Assembly: GCA_944389275.1 (NCBI GenBank)
Contig: CALXLT010000022.1
Span: forward strand, 1 to 64,000
Reading direction: 5' to 3'
From: an uncultured Spirochaetaceae bacterium
Lineage (GTDB): Bacteria; Spirochaetota; Spirochaetia; Sphaerochaetales; Sphaerochaetaceae
Length of the DNA stretch: 64,000 nt
The notes under the pieces are model-generated. The model was given only the letters and a program-made list of their open reading frames with translations, made no database searches and was not told the origin of the DNA. Positions 1 to 37,089 of this stretch are shown here, one piece after another; within the stretch, counting starts at the first letter, position 1; every line of letters begins with the position of its first letter. Position numbers and translations under genes: made by a program.

Positions 1-1
1 C

Positions 2-361
2 AAGGTTAAACAGAGGCCTCAGACCCTCTCGGGCGGGGAAAAGAGGAAGTGCGCCATTGCCGGGATTCTTGCGATGGAGCCCGAAGTGATTCTTCTGGAT
101 GAACCTTTTGCCAATCTGGACTATCCATCCACGCTTTCAGTGATCCGTGCTCTGAATACGCTGCACGGGAAGGGTTATACGATCCTCGTAGTCTCACATG
201 AGGTGGAGAAGTTCCTGTTCCATGCAGATACCCTTTTCATATTGGAAGAGGGAAGGATGAAGGAGAAGGGCAGGGCGGATGAAATCTATTTTAAGCTTCC
301 ATCCTACGATATCTATCTTCCAAAAAATGCATCATTTGAGGAGCTCTCATGGCTCAGGTGA
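2..361 (+). CDS. bioM: ECF transporter ATPase (BioM/EcfA type), 3' part only
   Basis: The frame is open from base 2, so the N-terminus with Walker A lies outside the window. The visible 119 residues begin just before the ABC signature LSGGEKRK, followed by Walker B VILLDEPFANLD and a switch histidine (VVSHEVEKF). This is the C-terminal half of an ATP-binding subunit that powers vitamin uptake by energy-coupling-factor transporters. It overlaps the start of the T-component gene by 13 nt, and bioY follows, so the substrate is most likely biotin. Family membership is certain; the biotin assignment rests on the bioY neighbour. Confidence 0.9.
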   Translation, partial: KVKQRPQTLSGGEKRKCAIAGILAMEPEVILLDEPFANLDYPSTLSVIRALNTLHGKGYTILVVSHEVEKFLFHADTLFILEEGRMKEKGRADEIYFKLPSYDIYLPKNASFEELSWLR

Positions 362-1071
362 TGATTTTCCACTACAGGGTGTCAGATAATCTTCTTACCC
401 GCTTGAACCCGAATACCAAGCTTGTCGCTCTTCTGTCATATTCCATTGTGATATCATCATGTGGACCACTTGAAACCATTTTACTCTCCTTGGTTCCAAT
501 CTCCATTGCATTAGGAATAAGGCTGCCGTTTCGGGAGTATATCAAAGAGAGTCTGTTCTTCATCCTCCTGTCTGTGTTGATGGCGATAACATCTTTTCTC
601 TCTCAAAGAGATATTCTCCATGCATTCTCTTATGCCCTGTCATTTCTCTCCATGGTGCTCTCTTCCATGCTTCTTACCGATACGACAATGCCGGATGACC
701 TTGCAAGATCGATAGGAGGAGCACTTTCAAAACTCATTGGAAGATATGCGTACATATTCTCTACGCTGGTGGAAATCACGCTTTCCATGATTCCTATCAT
801 CATAGATAGCACAGCAGGTATTTTTGATGCCCGCAGAGCCCGCGGCGCATCATTCTTCTCCCATCCGTTGAAGACTGTTTCAGAATTATCCATCTCAATC
901 CTTTCTTCTCTTCTTGATAAGGCGGAAATCTATATCGACGCGCTCTACAGCCGTGGCTATGATGCTTCACAAATCAGAGACAGGGCAGGGTACAGGGCAG
1001 TCGATTTTATAATAATGGCAGTAAGCGTTATTTTCTTATCTCTCAAAATGATATTTGAACATATGAGGTGA
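349..1071 (+). CDS. bioN: ECF transporter transmembrane T component (BioN/EcfT)
   Basis: A 240-residue membrane protein with several hydrophobic helices. In the cytoplasmic part it carries two Ala/Ser-Arg-Gly coupling motifs, RRARGAS (about residue 162) and YSRGYDA (about residue 201). In EcfT proteins these helices dock on the ATPase grooves and transmit ATP-driven movement to the substrate-binding S component. The start at 349 overlaps the ATPase gene and the stop lies 4 nt before the bioY start, so the three genes form one translationally packed operon. Length and topology fit CbiQ/EcfT proteins. Confidence 0.88.
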   Translation: MAQVMIFHYRVSDNLLTRLNPNTKLVALLSYSIVISSCGPLETILLSLVPISIALGIRLPFREYIKESLFFILLSVLMAITSFLSQRDILHAFSYALSFLSMVLSSMLLTDTTMPDDLARSIGGALSKLIGRYAYIFSTLVEITLSMIPIIIDSTAGIFDARRARGASFFSHPLKTVSELSISILSSLLDKAEIYIDALYSRGYDASQIRDRAGYRAVDFIIMAVSVIFLSLKMIFEHMR

Positions 1072-1075
1072 CTGT

Positions 1076-1615
1076 ATGGAAAGAAACCAGATTACAAAGC
1101 TTGTCCTGATCTCACTATTTGCTGCTCTCATAGCAGCAGGGGCATTCATAAAGATTCCCCTGATTCCCGCACCTATGACGCTGCAGACACTTTTTGCTCT
1201 CTTAGCTGCATCGTGTCTTCCACCAATGATGGCCCTCTCAAGTGTCGTCGTATATCTTTTCCTTGGCTTAATAGGGCTACCGATTTTCACGACAGGTGGC
1301 GGCCTTGCGGCAATGCTGGGTCCTACCGGAGGCTATCTGATTGGAATGATTCCGGCAGTCCTCATCGGTGCCGTCATTATGAATGCCTTCCAAGCAAAAC
1401 CACGTCTGGCTGCAGCCCTCTCTTCAATAGCGGCAACTGTGATAGTATATCTTATAGGGCTTCCATGGCTCGGGGTGAAGATGGAGCTTTCATTTGTCGC
1501 AGCACTTACTGCAGGACTTCTTCCATTTTTACTCGGGGATACGATAAAAATCATAGTAGCAATTGTTGTCACACCTGCGATAAGGCCCCGGATAAGCGGA
1601 CTTTTGAGACAGTGA
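1076..1615 (+). CDS. bioY: BioY biotin-binding S component
   Basis: A 179-residue, six-helix membrane protein of the BioY family. Diagnostic segments are IPLIPAPMTLQTLFALLA near residue 27, the glycine-rich GGGLAAMLGPTGGYLIG near residue 74, and LLPFLLGDTIKI near the C-terminus. BioY captures biotin at the membrane and, with the upstream T component and ATPase, drives high-affinity uptake. It is the last gene of the bioM-bioN-bioY operon. A GAGGTG ribosome site overlaps the end of bioN. No biotin biosynthesis gene is in the window, which would fit an auxotroph, but that is inference. Confidence 0.95.
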   Translation: MERNQITKLVLISLFAALIAAGAFIKIPLIPAPMTLQTLFALLAASCLPPMMALSSVVVYLFLGLIGLPIFTTGGGLAAMLGPTGGYLIGMIPAVLIGAVIMNAFQAKPRLAAALSSIAATVIVYLIGLPWLGVKMELSFVAALTAGLLPFLLGDTIKIIVAIVVTPAIRPRISGLLRQ

Positions 1616-1738
1616 TTCCTTGAAAAGGGAGTTGTATATACTCTAGCGGAAACCACTCAGAGTGCAGAAACTTGTATGCTGAAGCCTGTTTTTGAGCTTT
1701 GAATGAATAAACTTGTAGCTTTCATGTTGTTCATCGGA

Positions 1739-1767
1739 TTGAACATGATGCTCATTACGCCTACCAT
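1739..1767 (+). promoter_or_regulatory. Possible promoter of the cstA leader
   Basis: TTGAAC (1739-1744), a 17 nt spacer, then TACCAT (1762-1767). Both boxes match consensus at four of six bases, so this is weak. A transcript from about 1774 would include the whole structured leader at 1808-1955. A TATATT at 1775-1780 with no clear -35 is an alternative. Confidence 0.3.
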
Positions 1768-1807
1768 TTCCCAATATATTTTTCATGCAGAAAGAGGAAT
1801 TCGTCAT

Positions 1808-1984
1808 ATGTGGAAAGGGCTCTGTTTCCACATGGTTTAAGGTTCCTCGTAAAAAGAGCCCGATGGATGCTTCCATTGCTTCCGTACGCGGAAGACCCGT
1901 GACAGGTAGGCGCGTACAACTGGTTGGGATTGCTCCCGTATGGGGCTTTCCATCCTTTGATCATACTCACTGCAGTATAGCAGT
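1808..1984 (+). promoter_or_regulatory. Structured 5' leader of cstA, possible riboswitch or attenuator
   Basis: The 388-base gap between bioY and cstA has no credible gene but contains dense perfect pairing. ATGTGGAAA (1808-1816) pairs with TTTCCACAT (1825-1833). The loop of that hairpin, GGGCTCT (1817-1823), is exactly complementary to AGAGCCC (1855-1861), which would give an H-type pseudoknot or a switch. Next come CTTCCG-TACG-CGGAAG (1879-1894), a long imperfect hairpin 1922-1955 (GGTTGG/CCATCC outside, GCTCC/GGGGC inside, one U-U mismatch) followed by TTTG, and ACTGC/GCAGT (1969-1984). I do not recognise a known riboswitch consensus. The pairing is read directly; ligand and function are unknown. 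Confidence 0.6.
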
Positions 1985-2003
1985 TTGATAAAGCGAGGTA
2001 TGC

Positions 2004-3689
2004 ATGAACGGAATTGCGATAATAATCATCGCACTTGTCGCACTTATTGCAGGTTATGTCTGTTATGGCAGATGGCTTGCAAAGAAGTGGGGTGTCGATA
2101 ACAGCAGGAAGACTCCGGCTGTTGAGATCAATGATGGTGTGGACTACGTTCCAACAAAGAAGCAGGTTGTATTCGGACATCAGTTCGCATCCATTGCCGG
2201 AGCCGGCCCGATAAACGGACCTATCCAGGCGGCTGTCTTCGGTTGGGTTCCTGTTCTCCTATGGTGTCTTATCGGAGGGATTTTTATTGGTGCTGTCCAG
2301 GATTTCTCTTCGATGTTCGCATCTGTGAGGAACAAGGGTCGTTCCATCGGCATCATCATCGAGAACTATGTCGGAAAGACAGGAAAGAGGCTTTTCCTCC
2401 TTTTCGTCTATTTCTTCTCAATCCTTGTCGTCGCGGCATTCTCAGATATCGTAGCAAAGAGTTTTGGAGTGTCCGAGGCCTTTTCGGAAGCTGTCAACTA
2501 TTCCAACTCCCAGGTCGCATGTACATCAACTCTGTTTATTTTCGTTGCTGTTGCTTTCGGATTCTTCATCAAGTATAAGCAGCCGGGAACAGCTTTAAAC
2601 ACAGCACTTTCAATCATACTTCTCATCGTATGTGTCGCTTTGGGATGTCTTCTTCCTTTCTCCCTGGGTGTGAACACTTGGATGATTCTCGTATTCATCT
2701 ATATCCTTATTGCATCTGTAACACCGGTATGGGCTCTCTTGCAGCCTAGGGACTACCTCAACAGCTATCTTCTCATTGCAATGATTGCCGCTGCTGTAGT
2801 AGGAATCTTTGCATCCAACCCTCCGATGGATCTTCCTGCATTCTCGGGATTCATGACATCTGCAGGTTCCCTCTTCCCGATTCTTTTCGTAACAGTCGCA
2901 TGTGGAGCTGTTTCAGGTTTCCATTCACTTGTATCTTCCGAGACTGCTTCCAAGCAGGTCGAGAAGGAGTCCGACATGCTTCCCATCTCATATGGTGCAA
3001 TGCTTGTGGAATCCCTTCTTGGAGTAATTGCACTGGTTGCTGTAGGCGCTGTCTCTGCAGGTGGAGTCATCCCAAGCGGTACGCCCCAGATGATCTTCTC
3101 CCAGGCTGTATCAGGATTTCTGACAGTTCTTCATATCCCTGCAGACATCTCATATACACTCATCTCCCTTGCGGTCTCTGCATTCGCACTTACTTCCCTC
3201 GATTCAGTTGCAAGAGTTGGAAGGCTTTCATTCCAGGAGCTCTTCCTGGATAAGGAGGATGATGAGAAGAACCTCCCTTCCTGGAAGAAGGTTCTTACAA
3301 ACAGATGGGTAGCTACAATCATAGTTCTCATCCCTTCTTATGTGCTTGCACAGGTTGGATATGCTGAAATCTGGGCGCTCTTCGGTTCTGCAAACCAGCT
3401 TCTTTCCGTACTTGCCCTTGCTGCTGTTGCCGTATACCTCAAGAAGGCGAAGAAGGACAACAAGATGATGTTTGTGCCGATGTTCTTCATGCTTGCAGCA
3501 ACTCTTGTCGCTCTTATCCAGTTGATTATGAACAACATTGTCAATTTCGGTACAAGCGCAACAGTTTCTGCACTCGGACAGGCGATGCAGATAATCCTTG
3601 GCATCCTTCTTGTGGCCCTTGCCGTGATAGTCGTAATCTCTTGCTGCAAGAAGCTTTTCGGCAAGGATGAAGAGAGGGCGGACGCTTAA
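2004..3689 (+). CDS. cstA: CstA-family peptide/pyruvate transporter (carbon starvation protein A)
   Basis: 561 residues with about 15 hydrophobic helices, colinear with the CstA family. Near the N-terminus are the family motifs TKKQVVFGHQFASIAGAGP (residues about 51-69) and VQDFSSMFASVRNKGRS (about 98-114). Family members (CstA, BtsT) import pyruvate or peptides when carbon is scarce. The ATG at 2004 follows a GAGG; another ATG lies at 2000 in a different frame. The gene is monocistronic, with a hairpin terminator at 3729-3764. The structured leader upstream suggests RNA-level control. The exact substrate cannot be told from sequence. Confidence 0.93.
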   Translation: MNGIAIIIIALVALIAGYVCYGRWLAKKWGVDNSRKTPAVEINDGVDYVPTKKQVVFGHQFASIAGAGPINGPIQAAVFGWVPVLLWCLIGGIFIGAVQDFSSMFASVRNKGRSIGIIIENYVGKTGKRLFLLFVYFFSILVVAAFSDIVAKSFGVSEAFSEAVNYSNSQVACTSTLFIFVAVAFGFFIKYKQPGTALNTALSIILLIVCVALGCLLPFSLGVNTWMILVFIYILIASVTPVWALLQPRDYLNSYLLIAMIAAAVVGIFASNPPMDLPAFSGFMTSAGSLFPILFVTVACGAVSGFHSLVSSETASKQVEKESDMLPISYGAMLVESLLGVIALVAVGAVSAGGVIPSGTPQMIFSQAVSGFLTVLHIPADISYTLISLAVSAFALTSLDSVARVGRLSFQELFLDKEDDEKNLPSWKKVLTNRWVATIIVLIPSYVLAQVGYAEIWALFGSANQLLSVLALAAVAVYLKKAKKDNKMMFVPMFFMLAATLVALIQLIMNNIVNFGTSATVSALGQAMQIILGILLVALAVIVVISCCKKLFGKDEERADA

Positions 3690-3728
3690 TCAATTAAATG
3701 TAAATCTTGATTCGTTTTATTCATGATG

Positions 3729-3764
3729 AAATCCAGCTTGTTTTGTGCAGGCTGGATTTTTCTT
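3729..3764 (+). terminator. Rho-independent terminator of cstA
   Basis: Nine-base-pair stem AAATCCAGC (3729-3737) with GCTGGATTT (3751-3759), a 13 nt loop, then a T-run. It lies 40 nt after the cstA stop. Confidence 0.85.
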
Positions 3765-3882
3765 TGCACTAAAAATTAAACAAACTGAAGGTTTTCTGTT
3801 TTTAAAGGATAAAAAGACTTTATTTCCCGATTGAAACATAACAGAGAGATGGTTATCATTAGCCCTGTTTCCAAGGTTTGAT

Positions 3883-5232
3883 ATGCATAGCACTGTTATT
3901 GATATGACAAAGGAGCCGTTCTGGCGAAATATCATAAGATTTACAATTCCACTTGTCCTGATGTCGATGCTCCAGATTCTTTTCATGGCATGTGACGACA
4001 TGTTCATACTTGGGCTTTTTGTCGGAAGTCAGGCACTTGCTGCAGTTGGAGCGACCACATACATTGTCAATCTTTTCATAAATGGTTTTGCCGGTCTTGC
4101 AGTAGGCGTGAATGTTGTCTCTTCCCAGGCAATCGGGGCTAAGAACAGTGAAGTCGTAAGGAAGGCTGTGCATACGGCAATCTCCTCAAGTCTTATTTTA
4201 GGAATTGTGGTTGTTGCAATAGGTGAGTTTTTCGCTCGCATTTCGCTTGAGGCGCTCAACACCCCCATAGATATAATAGATCAGTCGACGCTCTATTTGA
4301 GGATATATTTCTTCAGTGCTCCATTTAATCTTATCTTCAATTTTGCATCTGCGATCATGAGGGCGAAAGGGGACTCGAGACATCCATTTCTATATCTTAC
4401 GCTATCAGGAGTTGTCGACATAGTATTATGCACATCTTTTGTCCTCCTATTCGACCTTGGTGTGGCAGGAGTTGCTATCGGAACCCTTTTAAGCCAAGTC
4501 TTTGCAGCCATTCTTTCCGTTTCATATCTTTTAAGATGCGATGATGATACCCGTCTTATACTTAAGGATTTGAAAATCGATTTGAAAATATTCAAACGCA
4601 TACTTGTTATTGGAGTGCCTACGGCATTGAACAACATGGCGTTCTCTTTTTCGAATATGCAGATCCAGAGTGCAATCAACATATTCGGTTCTGCTGCGGT
4701 GGCAGGATGTTCTGTATCCACAACTATGGAGAATTTCATTTATGCCGCTACAAACTCCATAATGCAGGCTGTCATCAGTTTCACAGGACAGAATGTCGGA
4801 GCAGGGAAGCTTGATAATGTGCCGAAGATAGTACACCTTTCTCTTATCTATACATTTTCAACCGGTACTGTCCTAGGTGCTTTAGTGTACTTGTCCGGCT
4901 ATCCTCTTCTTCCTTTCTTCATCGACTCCGATGCGATAGGCTATGCAATGTCAAGGAACCTGGTTGCCATGCTTCCTTATGGGCTATGTGGTGTGATGGA
5001 GGTCTATGCCGGTGTGCAGAGAGGACTTGGAAAAGGGCTGGCCCCTACGATAATCACACTCCTTGGAGTCTGCATCTTCCGCGTAATCTGGGTCTATACC
5101 GCTTTTAGAGCTGTAATGACGATAGAAATGCTCTTTTTAAGCTATCCAATCTCCTGGTCTGCTACAGCTGCTGCGCATTATATTTGTTATAAACGCTCTC
5201 TGAAAACAATGGAGAGAAGGGCGATAAGGTAA
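3883..5232 (+). CDS. MATE family efflux transporter
   Basis: 449 residues with twelve predicted helices in two homologous halves, as in the multidrug and toxin extrusion family (DinF/NorM-like branch). Typical segments are DMFILGLFVGSQALAAVGA near residue 44, GLAVGVNVVSSQAIGAKN near 77, and INIFGSAAVAGCSVS in the second half. MATE proteins expel cationic compounds in exchange for Na+ or H+. The ATG at 3883 has a weak AAGG ribosome site. The gene stands between the cstA terminator and the promoter at 5264, so it is probably monocistronic. The drug or metabolite cannot be predicted. Confidence 0.9.
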   Translation: MHSTVIDMTKEPFWRNIIRFTIPLVLMSMLQILFMACDDMFILGLFVGSQALAAVGATTYIVNLFINGFAGLAVGVNVVSSQAIGAKNSEVVRKAVHTAISSSLILGIVVVAIGEFFARISLEALNTPIDIIDQSTLYLRIYFFSAPFNLIFNFASAIMRAKGDSRHPFLYLTLSGVVDIVLCTSFVLLFDLGVAGVAIGTLLSQVFAAILSVSYLLRCDDDTRLILKDLKIDLKIFKRILVIGVPTALNNMAFSFSNMQIQSAINIFGSAAVAGCSVSTTMENFIYAATNSIMQAVISFTGQNVGAGKLDNVPKIVHLSLIYTFSTGTVLGALVYLSGYPLLPFFIDSDAIGYAMSRNLVAMLPYGLCGVMEVYAGVQRGLGKGLAPTIITLLGVCIFRVIWVYTAFRAVMTIEMLFLSYPISWSATAAAHYICYKRSLKTMERRAIR

Positions 5233-5263
5233 GTCAGCATATCCTTTGGCTTAACATTGTTTG

Positions 5264-5292
5264 TTGACAAGTGAAAGAATTGGATACATTAT
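5264..5292 (+). promoter_or_regulatory. Promoter positioned for a leaderless mRNA (DUF1847 gene)
   Basis: Perfect -35 TTGACA (5264-5269), 17 nt spacer, -10 CATTAT (5287-5292), then seven bases to ATG at 5300. Transcription should start at or next to the ATG, and no Shine-Dalgarno sequence exists between promoter and start. Confidence 0.65.
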
Positions 5293-5299
5293 TTTACCT

Positions 5300-5938
5300 A
5301 TGAATAGCTATTATTGTGCAGAGTGTAGCCACTATGAATGCAGTAAGAAAGAAAAGGGGACTCTTCCCAAGCCTTGTCCAATGAGGGATGAAGATCTCAT
5401 GTCTTCCTCTTTCAAGGAATATGAGAAAGATGAGAACAAGGAGTTCTATGTCTCTTCAAGTGAGATGGAGGCGCTTGGTTATTGCCAATGGACAAGACTT
5501 AGGGAGATTATGGAGTTTGCCAAAAGAATGGACTACCATAGGCTTGGTCTTGCTTTCTGCAGAGGCCTGAGGAACGAGGCCCGCATAACCTCCAGGATCC
5601 TCAGGGAAAACGGGTTTGATGTCATAAGCGTAATATGCAAGACAGGCGGCATCGATAAGGATGCCATAGGTATCGCCCATAAGGTCCATCCGTGTGAGTA
5701 TGAGCCGATGTGCAATCCAATAGCTCAGGCTAGGTTCCTTGAGAAGGCGGAAACTGAGTTCAATATTGTTCTTGGCCTTTGTGTAGGGCATGACAGTATG
5801 TTCTTCAAATACAGCCATACTCTTGCAACCGTTCTAGCTGTAAAGGATAGGGTGACAGGGCATAACCCGCTTGCGGCAATATATAACAGTGAAGGATATT
5901 TCAAAGATAGATTGAAGGTGGAAGATGGAAAAGCTTGA
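5300..5938 (+). CDS. DUF1847 family metal-binding protein
   Basis: 212 residues from the ATG at 5300. The N-terminus has closely spaced cysteines, CAECSHYEC, followed by CPMRDE, a pattern typical of the DUF1847 family. Downstream CRGLRNEA (about residue 87) and VHPCEYEPMCNPIAQA (about 131) resemble a Rossmann-like fold with conserved Cys/His. The biochemical role of the family is unknown. I prefer the ATG at 5300 over an in-frame TTG at 5261, because that TTG would lie inside the -35 region. The gene overlaps the first GntR gene by 14 nt and so belongs to that operon. Confidence 0.8.
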   Translation: MNSYYCAECSHYECSKKEKGTLPKPCPMRDEDLMSSSFKEYEKDENKEFYVSSSEMEALGYCQWTRLREIMEFAKRMDYHRLGLAFCRGLRNEARITSRILRENGFDVISVICKTGGIDKDAIGIAHKVHPCEYEPMCNPIAQARFLEKAETEFNIVLGLCVGHDSMFFKYSHTLATVLAVKDRVTGHNPLAAIYNSEGYFKDRLKVEDGKA

Positions 5939-35831: not shown

Positions 35832-36334
35832 TGGACTCCCTTCTCTCCGCCGCTACAGTCGGCTCGACCCATGGCCTCAAAGGCTATCTGAAGGTCTATT
35901 CGCTATCCGGCGAATATGATCATCTATGCGCCCTCGACGAATGCATCCTCCGCCTCAAGGATGGAGGGGAGCGCACCGTCAGGGTTGAGGAGGCGAGGTT
36001 CTCAGGTTCTCTTTTCCTGATGAAGTTCGTTTCCTACGATACGCCTGAGAAGGCAAGGAGCCTTACTGGATCGACGATCCTCATACGCCGCGACCAGGCT
36101 TCCCCGCTAGAGGAGGGAGAGCTTTACGTGGCTGACCTGTATGGCCTCGAGGTTATATCCGAGGGACGCAGGGCTGGGGTTGTCGAAAGCACATCGGAGG
36201 GCGCACAGGCGCTCTACCTTCACGTCAGGACGGAGAACGGCATCCGCCTTGTCCCGTATCTTCCCGTATATATCGGGAAGGTCGATGCGGAGAACGGCAC
36301 GATCGAGGTCCTCATGCCGGAGCTTCTTGCATGA
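35831..36334 (+). CDS. rimM: 16S rRNA processing protein RimM
   Basis: 167 residues with the N-terminal RimM barrel (VGSTHGLKGYLKVYSLS) and the C-terminal PRC-like barrel (GELYVADLYGLEVISEGRRAG to VPYLPVYIGKVD). RimM assists assembly of the 30S head and binds S19. It overlaps khpA by one base and trmD by four. Confidence 0.95.
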   Translation: MDSLLSAATVGSTHGLKGYLKVYSLSGEYDHLCALDECILRLKDGGERTVRVEEARFSGSLFLMKFVSYDTPEKARSLTGSTILIRRDQASPLEEGELYVADLYGLEVISEGRRAGVVESTSEGAQALYLHVRTENGIRLVPYLPVYIGKVDAENGTIEVLMPELLA

Positions 36335-37089
36335 GGATCACGGTCCTTACGCTCTTTCCCGGCATGGTCGAGCCTTTCTTCAGCTCCTCGATAATGAAGA
36401 GGGCCGTTGAGAAGGGAATAATCGAGTACAGCATCGTGGATATCCGCGACTTTGCCGAGGGAGTGCACAGGAAGGCCGATGACATACCATATGGCGGAGG
36501 CGCCGGAATGGTGATGATGGCCGCTCCTGTGGCTGCAGCGATAAAGGCGGCAGGGGCTGAGGGTAGGCGCATAGTCTTCCCGACCCCTTCTGGCCGTATC
36601 CTCACGCAGCGTTACGCGGAGGAGCTTTCCAGGGAGGATGAGCTCTGCTTCATCTGCGGCCACTACGAAGGGCTTGATCAGAGGATCATAGACGAGTACG
36701 TGACCGATGAGATATCCATAGGGGACTATGTCCTGTCCTCCGGAGAGAGCGCCGCGGTTGTCATAATCGACGCGCTTTACCGGCTTGTGGATGGAGTCAT
36801 AGCCGAGGAAAGCCTTGAGGATGAGAGTTTTTCCTCAGGGCTCCTGGAATACCCTCAGTACACGCGTCCTGAGAGGTATTGCATGAAATCTGTGCCTAGT
36901 GTATTATTATCCGGTCATCACCGCCATATTACCGAATGGCGATGCATGAAAAGGCTGGAAAAAACGATGCTCAACCGGCCAGATCTGCTCTCTGATGCCT
37001 CTCTCAGCATCGAGGAGCGAAGAACTTTATTGAAGATACTGAATAATGATAAGGGGACTTGTCAGAGATGGACATTATCAGAGCTATAG
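36331..37089 (+). CDS. trmD: tRNA (guanine-N1)-methyltransferase TrmD
   Basis: 252 residues. The SPOUT knot motifs are complete: [47 protein letters not shown] and [14 protein letters not shown], with the C-terminal helical part [16 protein letters not shown]. It methylates G37 of tRNAs reading CNN/CGG-type codons and prevents frameshifting. Its last 22 nt overlap the rplS coding region. Confidence 0.97.

Follow-up and report, generated by a model that had tools for sequence, protein, structure and literature searches.

The stretch of DNA analysed here, referred to as the window, spans 64 kb and carries two co-directional forward-strand genes, bioY (1076-1615; Pfam PF02632, E 1.3e-35) and cstA (2004-3689), separated by an intergenic stretch of 388 nt. 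The latter gene codes for a protein of 561 aa belonging to the carbon starvation protein/pyruvate transporter family, and had been labelled a pyruvate/peptide transporter in the initial annotation. Its membership of the CstA family was clear (PF02554, E 1.9e-146), but the score of 247 bits (E 4e-73) against NF011590 fell short of the equivalog cut-off of 1188 bits for the E. coli-type pyruvate symporter; since this cut-off lies well above the score, family membership does not establish the substrate. The same genome contains a second CstA-family gene (contig 35, 7126-8796; 50% identical); inspected by eye, its upstream DNA is rich in A and T close to the start and carries no similar leader. 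The closest named relative is Candidatus Ornithospirochaeta stercorigallinarum, one contig of which shows 99.5% identity to the window across 5531 bases. In the two copies of the region ahead of cstA, positions 1774-2030 are identical and a single upstream difference was found at 1708. An assembly error is unlikely, as the identical leader sequence is present in this second, separately deposited MAG. Over window positions 1-5531, the two near-identical genomes differ at 3 positions in 1-3856 and at 25 in 3857-5531, a sharp rise that could be due to recombination or to a contig-end effect.

The region between the two genes is probably non-coding, judging by its codon usage and by a Pfam search. 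Its open frames scored -0.12 to -0.37 per codon, compared with -0.02 for the 5th percentile of the window's long ORFs, on a scale where a genuine gene can itself approach zero (bioY, 0.017). The Pfam search of the leader's open frames returned no significant domain. A gene remnant was also considered and rejected, on account of the poor codon usage, the lack of a significant Pfam domain and a plasmid match at chance level only.

The central feature of the leader is a hairpin, which we named P2. Checking by script showed the coordinates reported earlier, 1808-1833, to be exact: the arms ATGTGGAAA (1808-1816) and TTTCCACAT (1825-1833) form a perfect 9-bp stem around the loop GGGCTCTG (1817-1824). 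With one further U-G pair added to the nine Watson-Crick pairs, P2 extends over 1807-1834 of the forward strand (loop GGGCUCUG). Seven of the eight loop nucleotides are able to pair downstream, as GGGCTCT at 1817-1823 is indeed the exact complement of AGAGCCC at 1855-1861, the putative pseudoknot strand on the same strand of the DNA. An alternative partner for AGAGCCC, GGGGCUU, lies near 1943-1949, and the calculated duplex energies are -12.0 kcal/mol with the P2 loop and -11.7 kcal/mol with this alternative. P2 is in turn enclosed by an outer stem, P1, made of 1794-1801 paired with 1841-1848 (GAGGAAUU/GGUUCCUC; six Watson-Crick and two G-U pairs), which was absent from the initial annotation and has a core pairing probability of about 0.99. 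When the forward strand of the window was scanned for perfect stems (9 bp or longer) whose loop finds a 7-nt complement no more than 60 nt away, this was the single occurrence, and among 20,000 dinucleotide-shuffled versions of 1774-2003 one contained the 9-bp/7-nt pattern, a figure that overstates the surprise because the pattern was picked after 64 kb had been read. With a looser 7/6 threshold, several matches were found on each strand of the window. The combination of hairpin and loop complement is better than chance and not a common coincidence.

A second pairing reaches the start of cstA itself. The 5′ arm TTCATGCA (1782-1789, forward strand) can form an 8-bp closing helix with 2001-2008, with predicted pair probabilities of 0.73-1.0. 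The cstA translation signals on that strand (1995-2008) consist of the Shine-Dalgarno sequence GAGG at 1995-1998 and the ATG at 2004-2006, the ATG lying within the 3′ arm of the helix. Given transcription from 1774, the closing helix would cover the start codon and part of the Shine-Dalgarno sequence; the predicted unpaired probability has a mean of 0.0 for the AUG and is 0.4 for CGAGGU at 1994-1999. An 8-mer complementary to the cstA start region was found in 118 of 5000 shuffles (2.4%). No terminator was called within the leader.

The folding of the leader as a whole was less distinctive. We obtained a z-score of -3.3 with the closing helix and of -2.6 when the final 7 nt of the outer helix were omitted, and the reverse strand folded just as well (z -3.1). 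Among 277 arbitrary 230-nt segments of the 64 kb, about 12-14 scored at or below the leader; the strongest fold of all (36801-37030, z -4.5 to -5.0) is inside a 252-aa ORF (36331-37089) that by eye resembles trmD. Overall, the folding of the leader is no stronger than that of several coding stretches of the window. Three further hairpins ahead of the cstA ATG had been taken as a sign of dense structure, a view that did not hold, as 1862-2003 alone gave a z-score of -1.6, which is at chance level. The first 75 nt of the leader are notable; the later hairpins are unremarkable.

Transcription of this structure would depend on the position of the cstA promoter. We trained a two-box promoter matrix on 16 upstream regions of cstA from the same genus, and the best match in the window was a putative sigma-70 type promoter at 1739-1767 on the forward strand (-35 box TTGAAC at 1739-1744, 17-nt spacer, -10 box TACCAT at 1762-1767). 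This match sits 236 nt before the cstA ATG, with a predicted transcription start near 1774. It scored 10.3, against 10.6-15.9 in the orthologues; in intergenic shuffles this value lay above the median and close to the 95th percentile (11.2), so the match is within reach of chance and suggestive only. Nothing comparable was found downstream of 1861, in agreement with the upstream start that the initial annotation requires; the structure would therefore be transcribed, and with a promoter at 1739-1767 a 5′ UTR of about 230 nt is plausible. A repeat search also located an imperfect palindrome, CATGTTGTTCA-N6-TGAACATGATG, at 1722-1750, which overlaps the putative -35 box and may be a transcription-factor operator.

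We then turned to the relatives. Many genomes of the same genus carry orthologues of cstA, 73-92% identical at the protein level, and in these the leader sequence is absent, the upstream DNA being unrelated to that of the window. The predicted distance from the -10 box to the ATG is 24-45 nt in 15 of the 16 orthologues, too little space for a leader of this kind, and 74 nt in the remaining one. DNA searches with the stretch found nothing in the family beyond the near-identical relative and nothing in phages or plasmids, and an exact scan of viral contigs for the hairpin core returned no match. Two covariance models, both built from the single known sequence, also failed to reveal any credible homologue in 48 same-genus genomes (R1), 139 genomes of the family (R2) and 395 genomes of the class (R1). 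Their best matches, which had E-values at chance for the genomes searched and did not keep P2, the loop and its complement together, were discarded, as were weak DNA matches within the family, whose unrelated surroundings make them look like chance. The leader is thus known from two genomes only, both of one gut-spirochaete lineage, and conservation of its stems, the lack of which the first description had named as a refutation, was not seen in any relative outside the near-identical genome. A dispersed or mobile element was also rejected, with one copy in the genome and, apart from the near-identical relative, none in other family members, phages or plasmids. The Rfam 15 scan bore out the statement that no known riboswitch class could be recognised: there was no relevant match even at E 10, the only match being an irrelevant one to mir-590 (1651-1707, E 8.6) far below the gathering score, and T-box and other Rfam classes gave no match in the leader.

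The genes on either side of cstA are common to no same-genus orthologue except that of the near-identical relative, and when bioY was used as the anchor, the sequence following it was unlike the window's in every other genome examined. Beyond the closest bioY relative (77%; contig 5 of its genome) the opposite strand carries a putative TnpB/OrfB-type transposase gene, identified by eye, which suggests that the DNA 3′ of bioY is prone to rearrangement.

We tentatively favour the reading that 1774-2003 is a lineage-specific long 5′ UTR of cstA, situated at a rearranged bioY-cstA junction and perhaps damping translation, without rating it as high as an even chance. Under this proposal, one Ornithospirochaeta lineage would have cstA in a new position, downstream of bioY, and an unusually long 5′ UTR formed at that site. 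Transcription would start near 1774 and the RNA would fold into the strong two-part hairpin P1/P2, while the 8-bp helix would close the RNA over the cstA start codon and lower translation unless something, such as an RNA-binding factor, a pairing partner or the ribosome, opened it. The analysis shows the sequence itself, its complementarities, its absence from relatives and the short spacing between promoter and ATG in the orthologues, whereas we infer where transcription begins, how the RNA folds in vivo and whether translation is affected. In favour of this reading are the promoter match at 1739-1767, the stable P1/P2 hairpin, the helix covering the AUG, the lack of a called terminator, the probably non-coding character of the stretch and its presence in a second MAG. 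Against it stand the absence of conservation beyond two genomes, a promoter match that could be of chance level, and a fold matched in strength by other parts of the window, some of them coding, and by the reverse strand.

Nearly as likely is a neutral junction, where cstA came to follow bioY by rearrangement and the 388 nt between them are DNA that was inherited or is decaying, with inverted repeats of no regulatory role. The unusual neighbours of cstA, the variation between genomes of the sequences that follow bioY, the failure of every search to find a homologue of the stretch and the short leaders on which the orthologues manage are all in keeping with this, as are folding z-scores of only -2.6 to -3.3 that are alike on the two strands. 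What such an origin accounts for poorly is the rare 9-bp/7-nt complementarity seen once in the 20,000 shuffles, which decaying DNA would not be expected to keep.

The leader also contains a possible short reading frame, MWKGLCFHMV (1808-1840, forward strand; 10 codons), preceded by a Shine-Dalgarno-like GAGGA at 1794-1798. Ribosomes moving from this GAGGA and the ATG at 1808 through P2 might free AGAGCCC for pairing with 1943-1949 rather than with the P2 loop and so alter access to the cstA start. The frame spans exactly P2, and AGAGCCC would gain almost as much energy from either partner, but a similar small ORF occurred in 235 of 3000 shuffles (8%) and is not significant, no regulatory amino acid is repeated in a run along the peptide, the ATG at 1808 is itself paired and nothing of the arrangement is conserved. 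We regard control by a leader peptide as unlikely. Slightly less probable still is a young, single-lineage RNA switch that originated with the move of cstA to its place behind bioY, in which the pseudoknot or translation of the 10-residue leader peptide would compete with the start-codon helix and so set CstA synthesis.

The initial annotation had instead suggested ligand- or protein-controlled expression, which in its ligand form would mean a pseudoknotted riboswitch that binds pyruvate, amino acids or peptides. The preQ1-I and SAM-II riboswitches are H-type pseudoknots, with pairing between a hairpin loop and a strand further downstream, and the P2 loop of the window is likewise complementary to a strand downstream of it. 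Unlike them, it combines a stem of 9-10 bp with the lack of a loop 1, and shows no covariance-model match and no conservation. The sequence permits the H-type layout, but there is no free first loop, as stem 2 starts right after stem 1, and unless a pair were given up no nucleotide would be left to cross the groove of stem 2. With P1 intact, the 6-nt linker at 1849-1854 would have to bridge the gap between the foot of P1 and the P2 loop. Keeping both P1 and P2, freeing the two seven-base strands costs 3.4 kcal/mol for a duplex worth -12.0 kcal/mol, so the pseudoknot could form if its entropic penalty were below about 8.6 kcal/mol. With P1 opened, the predicted sum of -65.7 and -12.0 kcal/mol (-77.7) compares with -79.8 kcal/mol for the ordinary fold, before any pseudoknot penalty, and the pseudoknot is predicted to lose if the strong P1 must open. 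We consider the pairing of the loop with its 3′ complement as optional and unproven. For a riboswitch, the exact 7-nt loop complement and the location before a transporter gene have to be set against an Rfam scan with no relevant match, a structure found in no relative although the gene is conserved, and the lack of a free loop 1 together with a pseudoknot whose predicted gain would not repay the loss of P1. Support for a leader that responds to a ligand is weak, and a riboswitch of this kind is very improbable.

Least probable of all is control by CsrA: the cstA leader of Escherichia coli is repressed by CsrA, for which it has as many as four sites, including one that overlies the Shine-Dalgarno sequence (Dubey et al. 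2003, described in PMC7652899), and GGA motifs are present in the window's leader, one of them in P1, but CsrA (PF02599) was not found in this genome (87.7% complete) by a search whose controls were positive in E. coli, B. subtilis and T. maritima.

The gene family is the same in the E. coli case, and the translation start may be occluded within the 5′ UTR in both; here this would be by pairing inside the leader, in a genome where no CsrA gene was found. Control at the RNA level over the cstA ribosome-binding region has similarly been proposed in Bacillus subtilis, where ncr22 is predicted to act in trans on the start region of cstA (PMC2784878). In that case the pairing RNA is a separate molecule, whereas in the window the cstA transcript would supply the partner itself, with its 5′ end. 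In Bacillus methanolicus, a T-box lies upstream of cstA1 and its authors suggested that it could be a leftover of genome rearrangement (PMC4342826). This is again a structured RNA before cstA and a parallel to the junction proposed here, with the difference that the T-box is a recognised class, whereas the Rfam scan of the window's leader found neither a T-box nor any other relevant family. By analogy, it offers a useful caution for reading that leader.

With nothing similar in relatives, the leader gives no pointer to a new riboswitch class, and the folded stretch is at most a local quirk of cstA control rather than a new family of molecular sensors. If real, the long 5′ UTR would add to the structured leaders known to limit translation of an individual gene, and would illustrate how a single species can acquire a leader following genome rearrangement.
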